From contig DATKHY010000007.1 in assembly GCA_035544215.1 (NCBI GenBank), positions 806,001 to 870,000 of the forward strand: 64,000 bases of DNA, read 5' to 3'. The notes under the pieces were generated by a model that saw only the letters and a list, made by a program, of their open reading frames with translations, was not told the origin of the DNA and searched no databases. Each line of letters begins with the position of its first letter. The stretch's first letter is position 1. A program made the translations under genes and the position numbers. The stretch comes from Candidatus Binatia bacterium. Lineage in GTDB: Bacteria > Vulcanimicrobiota > Vulcanimicrobiia > Vulcanimicrobiales > Vulcanimicrobiaceae. Positions 3,047-44,873 of this stretch are shown piece by piece.

Positions 3047-3340
3047 GCTTGAATCCTTTCGTCGGCGCACGTGACTCGAGCGCGCAGCGAGGCGGTGCGT
3101 CCGAACGTTTGCTAAGCTCTCGTTTGCCTAGGGTACTCCATCCTACCACCCAACCAGTTCGCGTGAAAGCTACCTCAGCCCGGGGCTCAGTTGTCAAAGC
3201 ACCGTATCGGCAGTGGCTCGCTCGAGTCACGAACAAGCGTCGCGATCAAGTGAGACCGATCGGGACGGTCCCCGACAGCTTCCTTTGTGGGGAGGCCCCG
3301 GGCCAATCGTTTCCCGCCAGCCGAAAGCTCGGCATGGCCT

Positions 3341-37509: not shown

Positions 37510-38339
37510 CGTTCTTTAAGAGAGTTCTCGTCGCGGTCGACGATTCGACTCCCTCGCAATACGCGATTGACGCGAGCCTTAGAGTCGGACGCGCAGATGG
37601 TGCCGCGCTGGTCTTTGCGGTCGTTCTAGATCCTTGTCTGTTATCGGAAGACTGCAGCTTCGCTTCGATACGACAGCTCGCTGAAGAGACTGCCTCAAGG
37701 ATCCTACACGAAGCCTGCACTCGTGCCGAGCAGATCGGAATCGAAGCGACCTCGCAGGTGTTTTTTGACGATCCCGTTCACGGGATCATCGCTTTGGCGG
37801 CGTCCGGCGATACTGGGCTCATCGTTATGGGAACGCACACGCGTTCCGGTATCACTCGCGCGCTCAATCGCAGCATCGCGGAAGCGGTGCTCCGCCAAAC
37901 GACGACGCCGCTTTGCGTGGTTCGCAAACAGCCTGTCGGGGAACGACATCGCCACCTGCTGGTAGCGATCGCGAACGACGATCTATCGGCGTACACGATA
38001 GAGTACGCGACGCAGGCCGCCAAGTCGCTGGGGAGCCACCTGACGTTCTGCACCGTAGCAGCAACTCGTACGGACGAGACCGAGCAGTATTTGAGGTCCG
38101 CGCAGGAACATGCCGTCGAGGCCGGCGTGCAGGCCGACTGGATCGTTGTGCCGCGCCTGGGAGATCTTTCCGGGGACATACTTCAACAGGCGCAAGTGGG
38201 CGAATGCGATGCAATCGTAATGGCGAGCCACGCCCGGGACGGCCTTTCGCGCCTCATCGAGGGAAGCGTCGCTGAAACGGTTATCCGTTACAGCGATCTG
38301 CCGGTCGTCGTTCTCCGCGAGAGCCGGCGCTTGGCCTGA
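37506..38339 (+). CDS. Universal stress protein with two UspA domains
   Basis: 277 residues: two tandem Usp modules (about 1-140 and 145-277). Each ends with the nucleotide-binding pattern G-(x2)-R-S-G-(x9)-S: M-G-T-H-T-R-S-G-I-T-R-A and later M-A-S-H-A-R-D-G-L-S-R, with G-S-V-A-E-T-V. The second module has Asp in place of Ser in the R-S-G motif. Translationally coupled to the MFS exporter, so the two are made together, perhaps under stress from the exported compound. Confidence 0.9.
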   Translation: MTFFKRVLVAVDDSTPSQYAIDASLRVGRADGAALVFAVVLDPCLLSEDCSFASIRQLAEETASRILHEACTRAEQIGIEATSQVFFDDPVHGIIALAASGDTGLIVMGTHTRSGITRALNRSIAEAVLRQTTTPLCVVRKQPVGERHRHLLVAIANDDLSAYTIEYATQAAKSLGSHLTFCTVAATRTDETEQYLRSAQEHAVEAGVQADWIVVPRLGDLSGDILQQAQVGECDAIVMASHARDGLSRLIEGSVAETVIRYSDLPVVVLRESRRLA

Positions 38340-38400
38340 AGGCCGGTAAACGCCGCACTTCCTACGTCATCCGTTCGGCCAGTTCGGACGTTTAGAGAGC

Positions 38401-38589
38401 ATGAGACTTGATTTTACGGCGGCGCTGCTCGTAACGGTGCTGGCTTTCGTTGTCATCGCGTCGGCGCAATTCTTGAACGGTTTACCCAGCGCCGAACGCG
38501 GGTTGCTCTTATTCGAAAAGGCTTGCCCGATTCATAGCAATCGGCTGCCCCCACAGAGCGTCGGCCTCCTAGGCGGGGGGCGCGATTTA
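38401..38589 (+). pseudogene. Possible truncated small membrane protein
   Basis: An ATG preceded by AGAGAGC opens a frame with a convincing hydrophobic segment (residues 8-24) and then N-G-L-P-S-A-E-R-G-L-L-L-F. After about 60 codons it runs into the convergent SnoaL-like gene, where its continuation is a shadow. It may be the 5' part of a small membrane protein gene cut off when the neighbouring gene arrived, or chance. Confidence 0.28.
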
Positions 38590-39024
38590 CTCTTGAAGTC
38601 CGAGCTGTCTCATATACGTGGCGTTGTCCCAGAAGAGGTACTCTTCTACCATTACACCGCTGTCGTTCCAACGCCCAACCGTGCACATTGGAAGCCTGAA
38701 GGACTTGCCGGTCGGAGGTATTGTCTTGCCATTGCCGGCCAGAATCGGTTTGGTAAACGTACCTTCCATCACGCCGACGACGCACGTCCATTCGCCCGAA
38801 CCGAACTTCACCGGATGCTGCTTGATACGGGTGTCGGGCGCGTAGACGAACAGCGCTTTCAAGTCGTCGATGTGCTGTTTGATTCCCGTCGTTGAATGGC
38901 CGTCGGGCCAATGGACGATGATGTCTTGCGCATGACTCTTCGAAAGGTCGCCCCACGCCTGATCCGAGAAAACGCGAAAATCTAGGTCGTCGAACGTGCG
39001 AATGTGCTCTGCGACTGCGTCCAT
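38587..39024 (-). CDS. SnoaL-like ester cyclase
   Basis: 145 residues, ribosome site GGAGAGG 6 bases upstream of ATG. Marks: F-S-D-Q-A-W-G, D-I-I-V-H-W-P-D-G-H-S-T-T-G-I, and F-R-L-P-M-C-T-V-G-R-W with V-E-E-Y-L-F-W-D-N. These fit the ester cyclase branch of the NTF2 superfamily. Third SnoaL-like gene of the window, standing alone. The 150 bases upstream contain no gene. Confidence 0.82.
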   Translation of the reverse strand: MDAVAEHIRTFDDLDFRVFSDQAWGDLSKSHAQDIIVHWPDGHSTTGIKQHIDDLKALFVYAPDTRIKQHPVKFGSGEWTCVVGVMEGTFTKPILAGNGKTIPPTGKSFRLPMCTVGRWNDSGVMVEEYLFWDNATYMRQLGLQE

Positions 39025-39177
39025 GGTGTACCTCTCCGTTTCATTTTACCAACGTTCTTTCCGAGTAACAACACAGCCCCGTCCTCTAAAGTCTCGCCGA
39101 TCTCGAGACGAAGCCGCCTCCGCAAGGGGGCGCTCGAGTGGTGACACCAGGAACGATATGTGCTGCGATTGCACTAG

Positions 39178-39345
39178 TTCGTTTCGAAGAGGCCTCGTTT
39201 TTCCGATAAGGAGCATCGCGAAATCGAACACATTATCGAGAGTGAGGAAGAGCGCGGCGAGTCGCCCGAGGAGGCGGAACGAATCGGTTACGCGACGGTC
39301 AACAAACACCGCGGCGAGCAGCTCGATAAGGAGGAAGCAGAATGA
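39178..39345 (+). pseudogene. Small acidic-helix protein gene lacking a normal start codon
   Basis: The frame after a TAG at 39175 gives R-F-S-D-K-E-H-R-E-I-E-H-I-I-E-S-E-E-E-R-G and A-T-V-N-K-H-R-G-E-Q-L-D-K-E-E-A-E, then a TGA overlapping the ATG of the DUF6582-like gene (39342-39345). The E-S-E-x-E-R-G-x-S-P-E-E-A-x-x-I-(G/A)-x-A-T-V-N-K core is that of a widespread small stress-related family. No ATG, GTG or TTG lies in frame between the stop and the conserved core, so either the start region is mutated or an unusual codon is used. The overlap with the next gene argues it was real. Confidence 0.45.
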
Positions 39346-39620
39346 AGACTACTTGGGAACCGCACGAAAAGCATGGGAACCTTACTACACAGAGCGATTT
39401 ACCGGACAGCGTTTTTGCTTTTCCAAAGCAGCGCAAGGAGCCGCTGACCGACGCGTCTCACGTTCGCAACGCGGTAGCTCGCTTCGATCAAGTCATCGGC
39501 GTCTCCGATGAAGATCGCGCCCTTGCCTTCGCCAACATTAAAAAGGCAGCACAGTATTATGGCGTCGACGTCTCCGAAGCGTCATGGCAGGAACTAGGCG
39601 CTCATCCGCAGCCCCATTAG
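39342..39620 (+). CDS. DUF6582-like small protein
   Basis: 92 residues, with a strong AAGGAGG seven bases before ATG. The core D-S-V-F-A-F-P-K-Q-R-K-E-P-L-T-D, H-V-R-N-A-V-A-R-F-D-Q-V and A-F-A-N-I-K-K-A-A-Q-Y-Y-G-V is well known in bacteria (DUF6582), of unknown function and often near stress or DNA-end proteins. Convergent with the HAD gene, overlapping by four bases. Confidence 0.8.
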   Translation: MKTTWEPHEKHGNLTTQSDLPDSVFAFPKQRKEPLTDASHVRNAVARFDQVIGVSDEDRALAFANIKKAAQYYGVDVSEASWQELGAHPQPH

Positions 39621-40306
39621 GCGTCAGTCGCGGAGCCACCGCTCGAAGAACTTGATCTGAGCACCTCTCGAACAAGGGCGGCATTGAGGTCGTCGAGGTT
39701 GGCGACGACGCGCGACGCAAGCGATAGCGCCTCGGCTTCCGGCGGAAACGCGCGGTTCGGGATCGCGACGACCGCAATCCGCGCGGCGTACGCGGAGCGA
39801 ATACCGTTGGCCGAGTCTTCGACGGCGGCAGTTTGCGAGGGATCCGCGTCGAGCAGTTCGAGGGCGAGCAGGTAAACGTCCGGCTCCGGCTTCCCGCGCG
39901 GAACTTCGTCGGCCGATACAACGACCGCGAAGAGAGAGTCCCAGCCCGTCGCCGCCAGGACGGTCTGCGCAACCTCGACCGCCGCAGACGACGCCAGCCC
40001 GAGCGTAAACTCGCTCGCAAGCCGACGGAGCGCCGCGTCCGCGCCAGGGAGAACCGGCGGAGTCTTGAGCCGCCCGGCGACCGACTCGACGACGCGCTTG
40101 GCAATCTCAGACGGCGCCGGCGCCGCGCCGAGTTCGTCGTGCATGTAACGCGCCCACTCATCGGTTCGCATGCCGATCATCGCGGCCGCTGCGTCAGGTT
40201 TCCAGCGGCCGCCATTCGCAACCACGAACTCGTGCCGTACGTCGCGCCAAATCTGCTCGCTTTCGATCAGCGTTCCGTCGAGATCGAACACGACGCACTC
40301 CTTCAC
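39617..40306 (-). CDS. HAD-superfamily hydrolase (beta-phosphoglucomutase/phosphatase type)
   Basis: 229 residues. HAD motifs in order: V-F-D-L-D-G-T-L (motif I, D8 and D10), A-S-S-A (II), R-G-K-P-E-P-D (III, Lys) and V-E-D-S-A-N-G-I (IV). A four-helix cap sits between I and II, as in the sugar-phosphate mutase/phosphatase group. The ATG overlaps the stop of the small upstream gene by ATGA (40303-40306). Confidence 0.9.
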   Translation of the reverse strand: MKECVVFDLDGTLIESEQIWRDVRHEFVVANGGRWKPDAAAAMIGMRTDEWARYMHDELGAAPAPSEIAKRVVESVAGRLKTPPVLPGADAALRRLASEFTLGLASSAAVEVAQTVLAATGWDSLFAVVVSADEVPRGKPEPDVYLLALELLDADPSQTAAVEDSANGIRSAYAARIAVVAIPNRAFPPEAEALSLASRVVANLDDLNAALVREVLRSSSSSGGSATDA

Positions 40307-40554
40307 AAGGCTGCCAGCGCGCGCTCAACCTCGTCCGGATCAGGCAACGTCTTCCACTGGAAGAGCTCGGCGTTGTCTTCGATGACGCCGTCGACCGGAA
40401 GGGGGAGATCAACGGGAAACTCTGGATGGAGCTGTTGCAAGGCGTCGATGACTTGCAACTCGCCGACCCACAGCTGCGAGAGCTCCGTCCAACGGGCGGA
40501 AGTTCGGTCTCGACGGTACGCTTCCAGAGCCAGCCTGACGTCGTTGGGTATCAT
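40303..40554 (-). CDS. Small protein coupled to the HAD hydrolase
   Basis: 83 residues from ATG at 40554, with GGGAGAA upstream. The sequence I-P-N-D-V-R-L-A-L-E-A-Y-R-R-D-R-T and P-L-P-V-D-G-V-I-E-D-N has no family I recognise. It overlaps the HAD gene by ATGA and so is made with it. Divergent from the candidate selenoprotein gene across 110 bases. Confidence 0.65.
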   Translation of the reverse strand: MIPNDVRLALEAYRRDRTSARWTELSQLWVGELQVIDALQQLHPEFPVDLPLPVDGVIEDNAELFQWKTLPDPDEVERALAAL

Positions 40555-40664
40555 CGTTTTTCTCCCTTTAAGTGCGCTATCGGGGTAAACCATCGCGACT
40601 GCGGCGCGGATGCACCGGTGCGAAGAGTGTTCGGTCGCTTAGCCCGTGCTATGATGAGTCGATC

Positions 40665-41255
40665 ATGGAGCGCGTGATCAACATCTGGGCCGACGTTATT
40701 TGACCGTTTTGCTACCTCGGCTCAGTTTGGGCCGAAGAAGCGGCGCGAGAACTGGGCGCTAAGCTGCGTTGGCTTCCCTTCGAGATTCATCCGGACACGC
40801 CGCCCGAAGGAGCACCGAAGCCGATTCCGCCGCAGGAGTGGCCCCGAGCTCGCGCGAGGCTCGAGCGTCTGGCGCGAGAGGTCGGGCTTCCAATCGACCC
40901 GCCGCAACGTAACGTAAACTCGCGTTTCGCGCTAGAGACAGCCGAGCTCGTGCGAGCCACGAGGGGCGACGATGCTGCGGGCGTCTTTTATCACGACGCT
41001 TCGCGCGAGTTCTTCACCCAACACGCCGATGTCTCGAAACTCGAGGTCATCGCCCCGATCGCCGGACGCTTCGGCGTCTCGGCTTCAGAGGTCGGGGCTG
41101 CGTGGCGCGAGCGACGGTTCTCTCACGCCGTTGACGCCTCTATCCAAGAGGCCCACAAGGCCGGCGTCACCGGGGTCCCGGCCATAGGATGGCCGCATCG
41201 GCGCGCAATCGTCGGAATGATGCGACCCGAGGATCTCGTAGGATACCTGCGCTAG
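40665..41255 (+). CDS. DsbA/FrnE-family oxidoreductase with TGA at active-site Cys (candidate selenoprotein)
   Basis: Reading from ATG 40665 gives I-N-I-W-A-D-V-I, a TGA codon at 40701-40703, then P-F-C-Y-L-G-S and an intact frame to the stop at 41255 (196 codons counting the TGA). FrnE-like DsbA proteins have W-(S/A)-D-x-x-C-P-(W/F)-C-Y-x-G here, so the TGA sits exactly on the first redox Cys, giving U-P-F-C. Later marks are also intact: L-P-F-E-I-H-P-D-T-P, N-S-R-F-A-L-E-T-A-E and the cis-Pro T-G-V-P-A-I. A hairpin suited to a bacterial SECIS follows. A plain nonsense mutation of TGC/TGT is the alternative. Automated calling would report only a fragment from 40950. No SelA/B/C/D genes are in the window. 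Confidence 0.78.
40716..40737 (+). promoter_or_regulatory. SECIS-like hairpin downstream of the TGA
   Basis: CTCGGCTC (40716-40723) pairs with GGGCCGAAG (40729-40737) in an 8-bp stem with one G-U pair and one bulged A, closing a loop AGTTT. It begins 12 bases after the TGA; 20 bases separate TGA and loop. Known bacterial SECIS elements sit at about this distance and have a G in the first two loop positions, as here. Folding was done by eye. Confidence 0.5.
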
Positions 41256-41641
41256 GCATAACGCCGCGCCAGCGCCTCGATCTCGCCGAGCAATATCGCC
41301 GACAAATCAGCATCTTCCGTAGCAACGACTCGATCGGCGATCTCCTTATGCCGCTCCTTCAGGTATTCAACGAAGTAGCGCATCGCGCTGCTCTTGCCCG
41401 TCGCGTCGCCGAGGATGAGAATCGAGGCCGCATTTTTTAGCCGTGCCGCGACGCGCTCGTAGAACTCGTCGGCCTCGGGGGTACGCTGTCCCGAGTAGTC
41501 GGCTTCCTTTCGGTGCTCGAGGTGGCGACGAAACCCGTGCGGATCGAGCGGTTCGAGATGTCCGCCCTCAACGAGGCCGCCCGCCGTCGGCGCGGGATCG
41601 AAGAAACGGGCGCGGTGGTGGTCGAGGAGGAGCACCGTCAT
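41252..41641 (-). CDS. eRF1-domain-like/'translational machinery protein' homolog
   Basis: 129 residues from ATG at 41641. It starts V-L-L-L-D-H-H-R-A-R-F-F and has a His-rich middle (H-G-F-R-R-H-L-E-H-R) and the C-terminal unit E-F-Y-E-R-V-A-A-R-L-K-N-A-A-S-I-L-I-L-G-D-A-T-G-K, then L-A-R-R-Y. That unit is the same as in small proteins annotated as translational machinery protein or bacterial eRF1-like. Role unknown. Convergent with the candidate selenoprotein, overlapping its stop by four bases. The long frame upstream to 42112 is a shadow of the AKR gene. Confidence 0.65.
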   Translation of the reverse strand: MTVLLLDHHRARFFDPAPTAGGLVEGGHLEPLDPHGFRRHLEHRKEADYSGQRTPEADEFYERVAARLKNAASILILGDATGKSSAMRYFVEYLKERHKEIADRVVATEDADLSAILLGEIEALARRYA

Positions 41642-41688
41642 CCGAAGCTCATTCTTGAAGGCGTTCTGAGAACCCCGGGCGATGGGGA

Positions 41689-42711
41689 TCAGTTCTCGGG
41701 CGGAATGCGCGCGTCGTTTTCGATCAAACCCTCGGATCGAAGATCCGACCAAAATTCGGCCGGAATCCGCGTCTCGAGCGACGTGTAGTCCGCGAGCACT
41801 TGCTGAGGATCTGAGCAGCCGACGACCAGCGCCACGGCGACGTCCGGCGCGCTCGAGAACCGCAGTGCGGCGGTACGGAGGTCCACGCCGTACCGCGCCG
41901 CGACGGCGCGCAGGCGGTCGCGTTTCTCGATCGCCCAGGCGGGAATCTTGTAATTGTCCCTGCCGTAGTTGTAGCGCGCGCTCCCGCTGATGAAGCCCGC
42001 GTTGAGCGACGAACCGACGACGAACCTCATTCCGGAGTCGCGCGCCTTCGGAAAGACCTCGTGAAGCGCCCTCGCATGATCGATCAGCGAGTATTGTCGC
42101 GCCAAGAGGCACACGTTCGCGTCGGCGACATCCATGAGCTTAAGGATCGGTTCGGGCGAGTTGACGCCGAGTCCCCAGCCCTTGATGAGGCCCCCGTCGC
42201 GCATCTTGCTCAGCGCCGGAAACGCGCCTTTGCGCGCGATCTCGAACTGCTCTTCCCACGGTGCCGGCAGCCAAGGATTATCCGGTGAGAGATCGTGAAC
42301 GAAGACGACGTCGAGCGCGTCCACTCCAATGCGCTGCAGACTGTCTTCGACCGACCTCTTGACGCCGTCGGCAGTGTAATCGTAGCGGAGGTTGTTCGGC
42401 GACGACGTGAACGGAAAGTACTCTTTCGCGTTGTTGTCGCGCGACGCCGTGAGCAACTTGCCGACCTTCGAGGATAGGACGTACTCGCTGCGTGTCTGGT
42501 TATGCAGAAAGGTGCCCAGACGCCGCTCTGCCAGTCCGAGGCCGTACCACGGAGAGGTGTCGTAGTAGCGGACTCCGGCGTTCCACGCCGCCTCGATCGT
42601 AGCGTGCGCAACTTCGTCGGTGACATATGCGAACTCGTTGCCGAACGGCACGCCCCCGAGGCCGAACGTGCGCCGCTCGAAGATTTCAGACGCGTTCATG
42701 AAAGCGCTCAT
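41689..42711 (-). CDS. Aldo/keto reductase (L-fucose/galactose dehydrogenase-like)
   Basis: 340 residues. AKR tetrad: R-Y-Y-D-T-S-P-W-Y-G (Asp, Tyr), V-L-S-S-K-V-G (Lys) and V-V-F-V-H-D (His). Further marks L-G-L-A-E-R-R-L-G and G-W-G-L-G-V-N-S fit the D-threo-aldose/L-fucose dehydrogenase group. C-terminal cofactor site V-V-G-C-S-D-P-Q-Q-V. Divergent from the PQQ-type dehydrogenase. Confidence 0.88.
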   Translation of the reverse strand: MSAFMNASEIFERRTFGLGGVPFGNEFAYVTDEVAHATIEAAWNAGVRYYDTSPWYGLGLAERRLGTFLHNQTRSEYVLSSKVGKLLTASRDNNAKEYFPFTSSPNNLRYDYTADGVKRSVEDSLQRIGVDALDVVFVHDLSPDNPWLPAPWEEQFEIARKGAFPALSKMRDGGLIKGWGLGVNSPEPILKLMDVADANVCLLARQYSLIDHARALHEVFPKARDSGMRFVVGSSLNAGFISGSARYNYGRDNYKIPAWAIEKRDRLRAVAARYGVDLRTAALRFSSAPDVAVALVVGCSDPQQVLADYTSLETRIPAEFWSDLRSEGLIENDARIPPEN

Positions 42712-42818
42712 TCACCGGCGTCCGGACCGGAACCAAGTAAGGACCAGCCTCCGCGCGGCACAGAACGAAATGTGGGTAAGCTGACCTTACTCAATCCCGC
42801 AGCATCGAGGAGTCCGTG

Positions 42819-44873
42819 ATGAGAACATCTTGCGCACTCGCCGCCGCCATTTTGATGCTTGCCGCCTGTTCGGGCGGCAACGGGGGGAACAAGGTAGCCT
42901 CGGATTCCGCATTGCTGGCAGCGGGATCCGACGACGCAAATTGGATCATTCCGGGCAAGACGTATGCCGGGAATCGCGTAACGGGTCTCGACGAGATCAC
43001 CCCGGCAAACGTCTCGCAGCTCAAGAAGGCGTGGATTACAGCCGTAAAGGACAACGGCGAAGAAGAGGCCTCGCCGATCGTTTGGAATGGAACGGTCTAC
43101 GTCTCGACCTCGCACGACAACGTGCTCGCGCTCGACGGTAAGTCGGGCGCCCTGCAGTGGGCCTTCCCCTACAGCCCGCCGTACGAGCTGCAATATCCGG
43201 TCAACCGCGGCGTGGGCCTGAGTAACGGCCGGCTGTACCTCGTCACGCAGGATTGCCGGCTCGTGGCAATCGACGCCGCGACGGGCAAGCAGATCTTCAA
43301 CGTGCCGGCCTGCCACGACACGACGAACACGTGGTATTCGATGGCCGCCTACGTCTACAAGGATAAAGTGATCGTCGGGACTTCCGGGGGCGATCTCGGC
43401 GGCAGCGGTCTGGTCAGCGCCTTTAGCGGGCAGGACGGCTCGCGGCTTTGGGATTGGCATACCGTCGCCCAACCGGGCGAACCCGGGCACGAAACGTGGC
43501 CCGGGAATTCCTACATCCACGGCGGCGCGGCGGTGTGGTCGGGGCTTTCGATCGATCAAGCGACGGACACGCTCTATGCCGCACCCGGCAACCCGGGACC
43601 GAACCTCACCGAATACGGACGCAAGGGGCTGAATCTCTACGCCGATACCGTCGTCGCGCTCGACATTTCCGGCGCGCGCCCGCGCCTCAAGTGGTATTAC
43701 AAAGTCTCTCCAAACGACGTGCACGACAACGATCCGTCGATGCCGCCGGTGCTCTTTGATGGAACGGTGAGCGGTTCGCCGCGGCAGCTGTTGGCCGTCG
43801 GTGACAAGGCGGGCGATTTTGCGATCCTCGACCGCACGAACGGAAAGCCCGTCGACCGGTTAGCCGTCAGTAATCAGCAGGGCATTTTTACCACGGTTCC
43901 GACGGTAGCCGGAAGCTTCGCGTGCCCGAATCACGGCGGCGGCATCGAATGGAACGGCGGCTCGTACGACCAGACGACGAATCTCTTCTTCATCCCGAGC
44001 ACGCAAGAGTGCGCGATCTGGAAAATCATCGACACCGCGACCGTACCGTACGTTCCGGGACAGGCCTACACTGCGGGACCGCTGCCCAAGCGTCAGCCCG
44101 CGACCGGCGTTTTCACAGCGGTCGACGTTGCCACCGGCAAGCCGGCGTGGACGAAGCAGTTTCCGTATCCGGGTGAGGGAGGCGCGCTCGTCACGCGCAA
44201 CGGCCTGGTCTTCACGACCGACACCGGCGGCGACATTTACGCCTTCGATACCAAGACCGGCAAGCTGCTCTGGCACGACGACGTGGGGTCCGCGATCGTC
44301 GCGCCGATCACCGCGTACCGTACGAGTGACGGGCACGAGTATCTCGTCGTTGAGGGGGGTGAAGGCGGCAACCAGCAGACGCCCAACCTCCCGCCTTCAC
44401 ACGGAGCGCGCGTCGTCGCGTACAGCTTGAACTCGGCGCAGACGATCGTCAACGACGTGACCGGGCAGCCGGCGGTCGCGGCCGCGACCGCGGGAAAGAC
44501 CGAGAGCGCCTCAGGCACGGTAACGCTCCCGTATACGCCGGCGCAAGTGGCGAGCGGAGCGACGGTCTATGCGAAGTATTGCTTGTCGTGTCACGGGACG
44601 CACTTGCAAGGAGTCTCGGGTCCCGCCTTAACCGGACCGGGTTTCGCACACGCGAATCTGAACGTGGCGCAGATCTACGGCATCGTCGCGCAGCAGATGC
44701 CGCTCACGGCGCCAGGATCGCTTTCGAAGGCCAACTACGCGGCCGTCATGGCCTACGTCCTCTCCTACGATTGCGTGAAATCGGCGGGCGGCGGCACGCC
44801 GTTTCCGACTACTGTGACCCCGCAGCTTTCAACGGTAAAACCGACGGACCAGACGTGTCCAGCGCATCAATAG
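42819..44873 (+). CDS. PQQ-type quinoprotein dehydrogenase lipoprotein with C-terminal cytochrome c
   Basis: 684 residues; ATG chosen with GAGGAG six bases upstream. Lipobox L-A-A-C at residues 14-17. An eight-bladed propeller of quinoprotein alcohol-dehydrogenase type (tryptophan-docking parts such as G-A-L-Q-W-A-F-P, G-S-R-L-W-D-W, G-K-P-A-W-T-K, G-K-L-L-W-H-D) fills residues 35-540. A cytochrome c domain follows with C-L-S-C-H-G and a later Met. Adjacent Cys as in some alcohol dehydrogenases is not evident. It should oxidise an alcohol or sugar outside the cell and pass electrons to its own heme. Confidence 0.88.
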   Translation: MRTSCALAAAILMLAACSGGNGGNKVASDSALLAAGSDDANWIIPGKTYAGNRVTGLDEITPANVSQLKKAWITAVKDNGEEEASPIVWNGTVYVSTSHDNVLALDGKSGALQWAFPYSPPYELQYPVNRGVGLSNGRLYLVTQDCRLVAIDAATGKQIFNVPACHDTTNTWYSMAAYVYKDKVIVGTSGGDLGGSGLVSAFSGQDGSRLWDWHTVAQPGEPGHETWPGNSYIHGGAAVWSGLSIDQATDTLYAAPGNPGPNLTEYGRKGLNLYADTVVALDISGARPRLKWYYKVSPNDVHDNDPSMPPVLFDGTVSGSPRQLLAVGDKAGDFAILDRTNGKPVDRLAVSNQQGIFTTVPTVAGSFACPNHGGGIEWNGGSYDQTTNLFFIPSTQECAIWKIIDTATVPYVPGQAYTAGPLPKRQPATGVFTAVDVATGKPAWTKQFPYPGEGGALVTRNGLVFTTDTGGDIYAFDTKTGKLLWHDDVGSAIVAPITAYRTSDGHEYLVVEGGEGGNQQTPNLPPSHGARVVAYSLNSAQTIVNDVTGQPAVAAATAGKTESASGTVTLPYTPAQVASGATVYAKYCLSCHGTHLQGVSGPALTGPGFAHANLNVAQIYGIVAQQMPLTAPGSLSKANYAAVMAYVLSYDCVKSAGGGTPFPTTVTPQLSTVKPTDQTCPAHQ

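Follow-up and report, generated by a model that had tools for sequence, protein, structure and literature searches.

Evidence for selenocysteine in the active site of an FrnE-type oxidoreductase from an uncultured Vulcanimicrobiota lineage

The gene at positions 40665..41255 (+ strand) of the window (the whole 64,000-nucleotide stretch of DNA analyzed here) very probably uses an in-frame TGA at codon 13 to place selenocysteine (Sec) in an FrnE/DsbA-type active site. We are close to certain that its 196-residue product is a thiol/disulfide oxidoreductase of the FrnE type, with a predicted cytoplasmic location, in which the UGA at codon 13 would be decoded as Sec. The U-P-F-C active site with Sec put forward in the original prediction is supported by the Sec machinery genes, conservation of the TGA, a covarying hairpin, and a second Sec gene in the same genome.

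Translation confirmed the predicted frame of 196 codons, which runs from an ATG at 40665 to a TAG at 41253-41255 and is broken only by the TGA (40701..40703, + strand). The product begins MERVINIWADVI-U-PFCYLGSVW..., in which the TGA corresponds to Sec13 of the motif U13-P-F-C16 and the partner expected to resolve it, Cys16, is encoded by a TGC at 40710..40712 (+ strand), the sole Cys codon in the frame. With the TGA read as Cys, the Pfam DSBA family (PF01323) matched residues 5-195 (E = 6.8e-26; 91.7 bits versus a cut-off of 25.6), and no NCBIfam family scored above its cut-off for this product. U13, C16, and P172 are invariant in the family alignment. The cis-proline of thioredoxin-fold proteins lies opposite the active site, and Pro172 (TGV-P-A; codon 41178..41180, + strand), the cis-proline of the invariant pair V171-P172, would face it here; the rest of the frame is intact with its cis-Pro loop, as had been proposed. 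In the list of open reading frames (table 11), no intact frame appears: the only one in this frame begins at 40950, far 3' of the start, and standard table-11 gene calling would truncate or miss the gene. Relative to same-genus orthologs, dN was ~0.13 and dS ~0.55 downstream of the TGA, which indicates purifying selection and constraint at the protein level on this part of the sequence; with dN so low relative to dS, the downstream part must be translated. Upstream of the gene, TGCTATGAT at 40647-40664 resembles an extended -10 element, and about 9 bases separate the end of this element from the ATG. If it acts as a -10, the mRNA would be leaderless; the element is kept only partly in relatives, and a promoter consensus scan at the FrnE-like gene found no promoter.

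Whether close homologs carry TGA or Cys at this position had been posed as a question by the original prediction, and the alignment answered with TGA, both within the phylum and in a second one. Among 198 related genomes, 15 (a count that includes the window's own genome and one of another phylum) contained a full-length homolog with one internal TGA. The TGA was present in 14 of the 14 full-length close orthologs from the phylum, the window gene included, and Cys in none of the 14; these orthologs (identity at least 53%, spanning 53-77%) have exactly one TGA each, at the identical codon, within the motif W-[AS]-D-V-[IV]-U-P-[FY]-C-Y-L-G-S-V-W. Two genomes of the other phylum (loci L025 and L123) also encode a Sec-FrnE with TGA at this codon; the motif of the other-phylum homolog among the 15 is F-S-D-Y-V-U-P-W-C-Y. 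No Cys version was found among close orthologs in 149 genomes of the phylum, where the only matches lacking TGA were a fragment at a contig end and a distant homolog at 35% identity. The TGA aligns with Cys in distant homologs and in FrnE, and the family profile sets position 13 against the Cys of Deinococcus radiodurans FrnE, in agreement with the proposal that the TGA sits at the first active-site Cys of the FrnE type. Named records gave a matching division, with TGA in 13 of 13 best loci and Cys in the remaining 67 of 67, at 22-32% identity. Most of these 13 loci are labeled Candidatus Eremiobacterota or candidate division WPS-2 (the current phylum name in the NCBI taxonomy is Vulcanimicrobiota); a few carry the labels Acidobacteria, Chthoniobacterales, Rhodospirillales, or simply bacterium, and are probably misassigned MAGs. 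The window itself is placed in this phylum by way of its relatives.

The distribution of the gene is patchy. Within the window genus it is absent from 14 of 18 genomes, although 12 of those 14 have selB, and across 13 relatives (3-kb flanks) there was no conserved neighborhood, the Sec gene itself being all that was common with the window. In one close relative (L046, 3001-3240), a second TGA occupies the conserved Trp59 codon (3175-3177) in addition to the Sec TGA, which may point to decay or misassembly of that copy.

A bacterial SECIS-like hairpin of 7 pairs, recognized by folding and alignment, follows the TGA (stem 40717-40723/40729-40735, loop AGUUU at 40724-40728, + strand). The hairpin with loop AGTTT that had been predicted is therefore present, though it starts 13 rather than 12 bases after the TGA. 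Its fold z-score of -2.4 for 51 bases is only moderately unusual by itself, and no signal emerged when 91 bases were folded (z = -0.4), so the case for a SECIS element rests on the alignment. Across 17 aligned sequences, all 119 of 119 stem cells were standard pairs, with two-sided changes in 3 of the 7 pairs; none of 500 shuffles reached this result, and pairing fell to 13-56% in slid controls. Many of the aligned rows represent one family, so that the two-sided changes depend on two sequences, L017 and L025, the latter from the other phylum. In L025 the stem is preserved with different letters (TTCAGTAC / GTATTGAA); L123 likewise differs from the main clade in stem sequence, and the hairpin geometry is unchanged in both. 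Most members have the loop GGTCT (AGTTT occurs in the window and L046), and its GU is invariant in every sequence, L123 included. A guanosine within a small apical loop is common to published bacterial SECIS elements (PMC1088965). An Rfam scan of 38000-44000 (E up to 10) returned chance matches only and no SECIS model. Of the 1491 TGA trinucleotides in the window, only 8 are followed by a hairpin that roughly fits this type, and conservation of the TGA and of the hairpin across about 16 genomes is stronger evidence against chance than this rarity.

The window's genome encodes the machinery that Sec insertion would require. A search for the four sel genes, as the original prediction had suggested, recovered all of them: selB (70 bits), selA (444 bits), selD (384 bits, over its cut-off), and selC, the tRNA-Sec, as one tRNA at 70.5 bits versus a cut-off of 47, which ARAGORN also calls as tRNA-Sec with anticodon TCA. 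These genes lie close together (contig C7, about 1190-1225 kb). Sec machinery was likewise detected in 13 of the 15 TGA-gene genomes of the first search; in the other two (91% and 83% complete; G016 and G083), selA, selB, and selC were undetected alongside the TGA gene, a gap that likely reflects missing contigs since the sel genes are near one another in the window's genome. SelB was found in 144 of 198 genomes, and because it is common with or without the TGA gene, co-occurrence is weak evidence.

The same genome contains a second selenoprotein, encoded by a formate dehydrogenase alpha-like gene (fdhA; C7:1288883-1290154, within the stretch examined as L040 1447-3375, or C7 about 1288830-1290760). 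This gene has one in-frame TGA, in SCNRT-U-HAPS, which is the known Sec site of FdhA, where Sec serves as a metal ligand; decoding of UGA as Sec thus serves a second, classic protein here. FdhA is a molybdopterin enzyme unrelated to the FrnE-like protein, yet its TGA is also followed by a 7-pair hairpin, with the 5-base loop GGTCT found in most FrnE orthologs. The compensatory changes in the one hairpin and the similar hairpin in fdhA both support the proposal of a SECIS element just downstream of the UGA.

Other readings of the TGA fare poorly against these data. The original prediction named a simple nonsense mutation, leaving a dead stop in a decaying frame, as the main alternative. The frame alone was compatible with such a pseudogene prior to comparison, and the second TGA of L046 suggests that some copies may decay, but all close orthologs at 53-77% identity keep the TGA, and purifying selection downstream and the covarying hairpin also argue against it. 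Conservation across orders and two phyla rules this alternative out for practical purposes, and we consider it extremely improbable. A sequencing or assembly error converting a Cys codon to TGA would take one base (TGC or TGT to TGA), but TGA stands at this codon in numerous assemblies made independently of one another, and the coding frame has no other defect; these assemblies refute an error, to which we give a negligible chance. UGA might instead be reassigned, or read through by a near-cognate tRNA, as another residue such as Trp or Cys, given that a few bacteria decode TGA as Trp or Gly and that ordinary tRNAs read through UGA at a low level. TGA nevertheless appears to be a normal stop elsewhere (several orthologs of the FrnE-like gene end in it), Trp is encoded by TGG within the FrnE-like protein, position 13 aligns with Cys rather than Trp, and the genome has tRNA-Sec(UCA) and SelB; a residue other than Sec is accordingly very improbable.

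The assignment to FrnE draws on both sequence and structure. Searched with the family profile, D. radiodurans FrnE was the best solved relative (5cnw/5cp1, E = 7e-25), and an AlphaFold model built with Cys in place of Sec (pLDDT 92.8) was closest to structures of the same protein (TM 0.85-0.86; 5co3, TM 0.85). FrnE of D. radiodurans (DR_0659; PDB 5cnw, 5co3, 5coh, 5cp1, 5xwh) and SCO1869 (3gl5) were thus the best matches by sequence and fold, sharing an N-terminal CPWC aligned with the window's UPFC, a cis-Pro loop, and a helical insertion. The window protein differs from FrnE in having Sec for the first Cys and a single Cys, and in lacking the C-terminal CXXXXC pair; aligned by fold, the two share about 22% identity. 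The D. radiodurans protein is described as a disulfide reductase of the cytoplasm that also acts as an isomerase and reduces insulin, and its C-terminal CXXXXC aids regeneration (PMC8945050). Many FrnE members, though not all, have the CXXXXC pair. The FrnE proteins of S. roseofulvus and D. maricopensis are also without this pair (PMC8945050), which is therefore not a required feature of FrnE.

It is also conceivable, though unlikely, that Sec is inserted into an enzyme resembling HCCA isomerase or GST kappa, or into one that detoxifies metals or electrophiles, rather than into a disulfide reductase. HCCA isomerase and GST kappa belong to the same fold superfamily, and a review describes the functions of such selenoproteins as mostly uncharacterized (PMC13188914). 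However, both were weaker matches than FrnE, the closest solved relative in sequence and fold, and they have Ser replacing the redox Cys together with a glutathione site, whereas UPFC with an invariant Cys16 and cis-Pro constitutes a redox motif; the disulfide isomerase and insulin reduction activities of D. radiodurans FrnE (PMC8945050) likewise favor a reductase.

For an FrnE-type disulfide reductase, we propose that SelB would bring Sec-tRNA(Sec) and bind the hairpin just 3' of the UGA, leading the ribosome to insert Sec instead of stopping. Sec13 would then attack a substrate disulfide to form a mixed selenide-sulfide, which Cys16 would resolve, and the resulting Sec13-Cys16 bond would need reduction by a cellular reductant. 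With Cys16 the sole Cys and CXXXXC missing, regeneration would have to come from outside the protein. The cytoplasmic location is presumed; translation and the predicted model place no N-terminal extension ahead of strand 1, leaving no room for a signal peptide.

The 16 main-clade Sec sequences stand apart from the two of the other phylum in our tree, which needs two label changes and unites the Sec groups in no bootstrap tree. The deep forks are weakly supported, and Sec-FrnE may therefore have arisen once and later been lost, been passed on by transfer, or originated twice. With somewhat less than even probability, the clade is an obligate-Sec branch of FrnE, in which Sec was fixed in the ancestor with no known Cys ortholog and a single Sec-Cys pair works without C-terminal shuttle cysteines; a separate origin in the second phylum may apply.

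DsbA-like UxxC selenoproteins (PF01323) have been in the literature since 2005, also from bacterial genomes, and resemble the window protein in having a DSBA thioredoxin domain, Sec as the first residue of UxxC, and a downstream SECIS with a small G-containing loop. Some were listed under COG2761, the FrnE group. They include nine Sargasso Sea sequences under that COG (PMC1088965), the DsbA 1 selenoprotein set of the GOS survey (PMC2398784), and the "DsbA-like protein form 1" (NIP15863.1) of a 2026 review (PMC13188914), and the suggestion that Sec use was undescribed for this protein does not hold at the family level. As for this kind of organism, literature searches on Eremiobacterota/Vulcanimicrobiota with selenocysteine and on WPS-2 with selenoprotein found no relevant paper linking the phylum to selenocysteine. 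Compared by description, the window clade differs from the known family in its lineage (Candidatus Eremiobacterota/WPS-2/Vulcanimicrobiota plus another phylum). What is new is this lineage, the absence of a Cys ortholog from the clade, and the absent C-terminal cysteines of FrnE. With our analysis, an uncultured, little-studied phylum of soil and peat gains a well-supported selenoprotein. Being compact and having a single Sec-Cys pair, this Sec-FrnE is suited to testing the contribution of Sec to a disulfide reductase of the cytoplasm.
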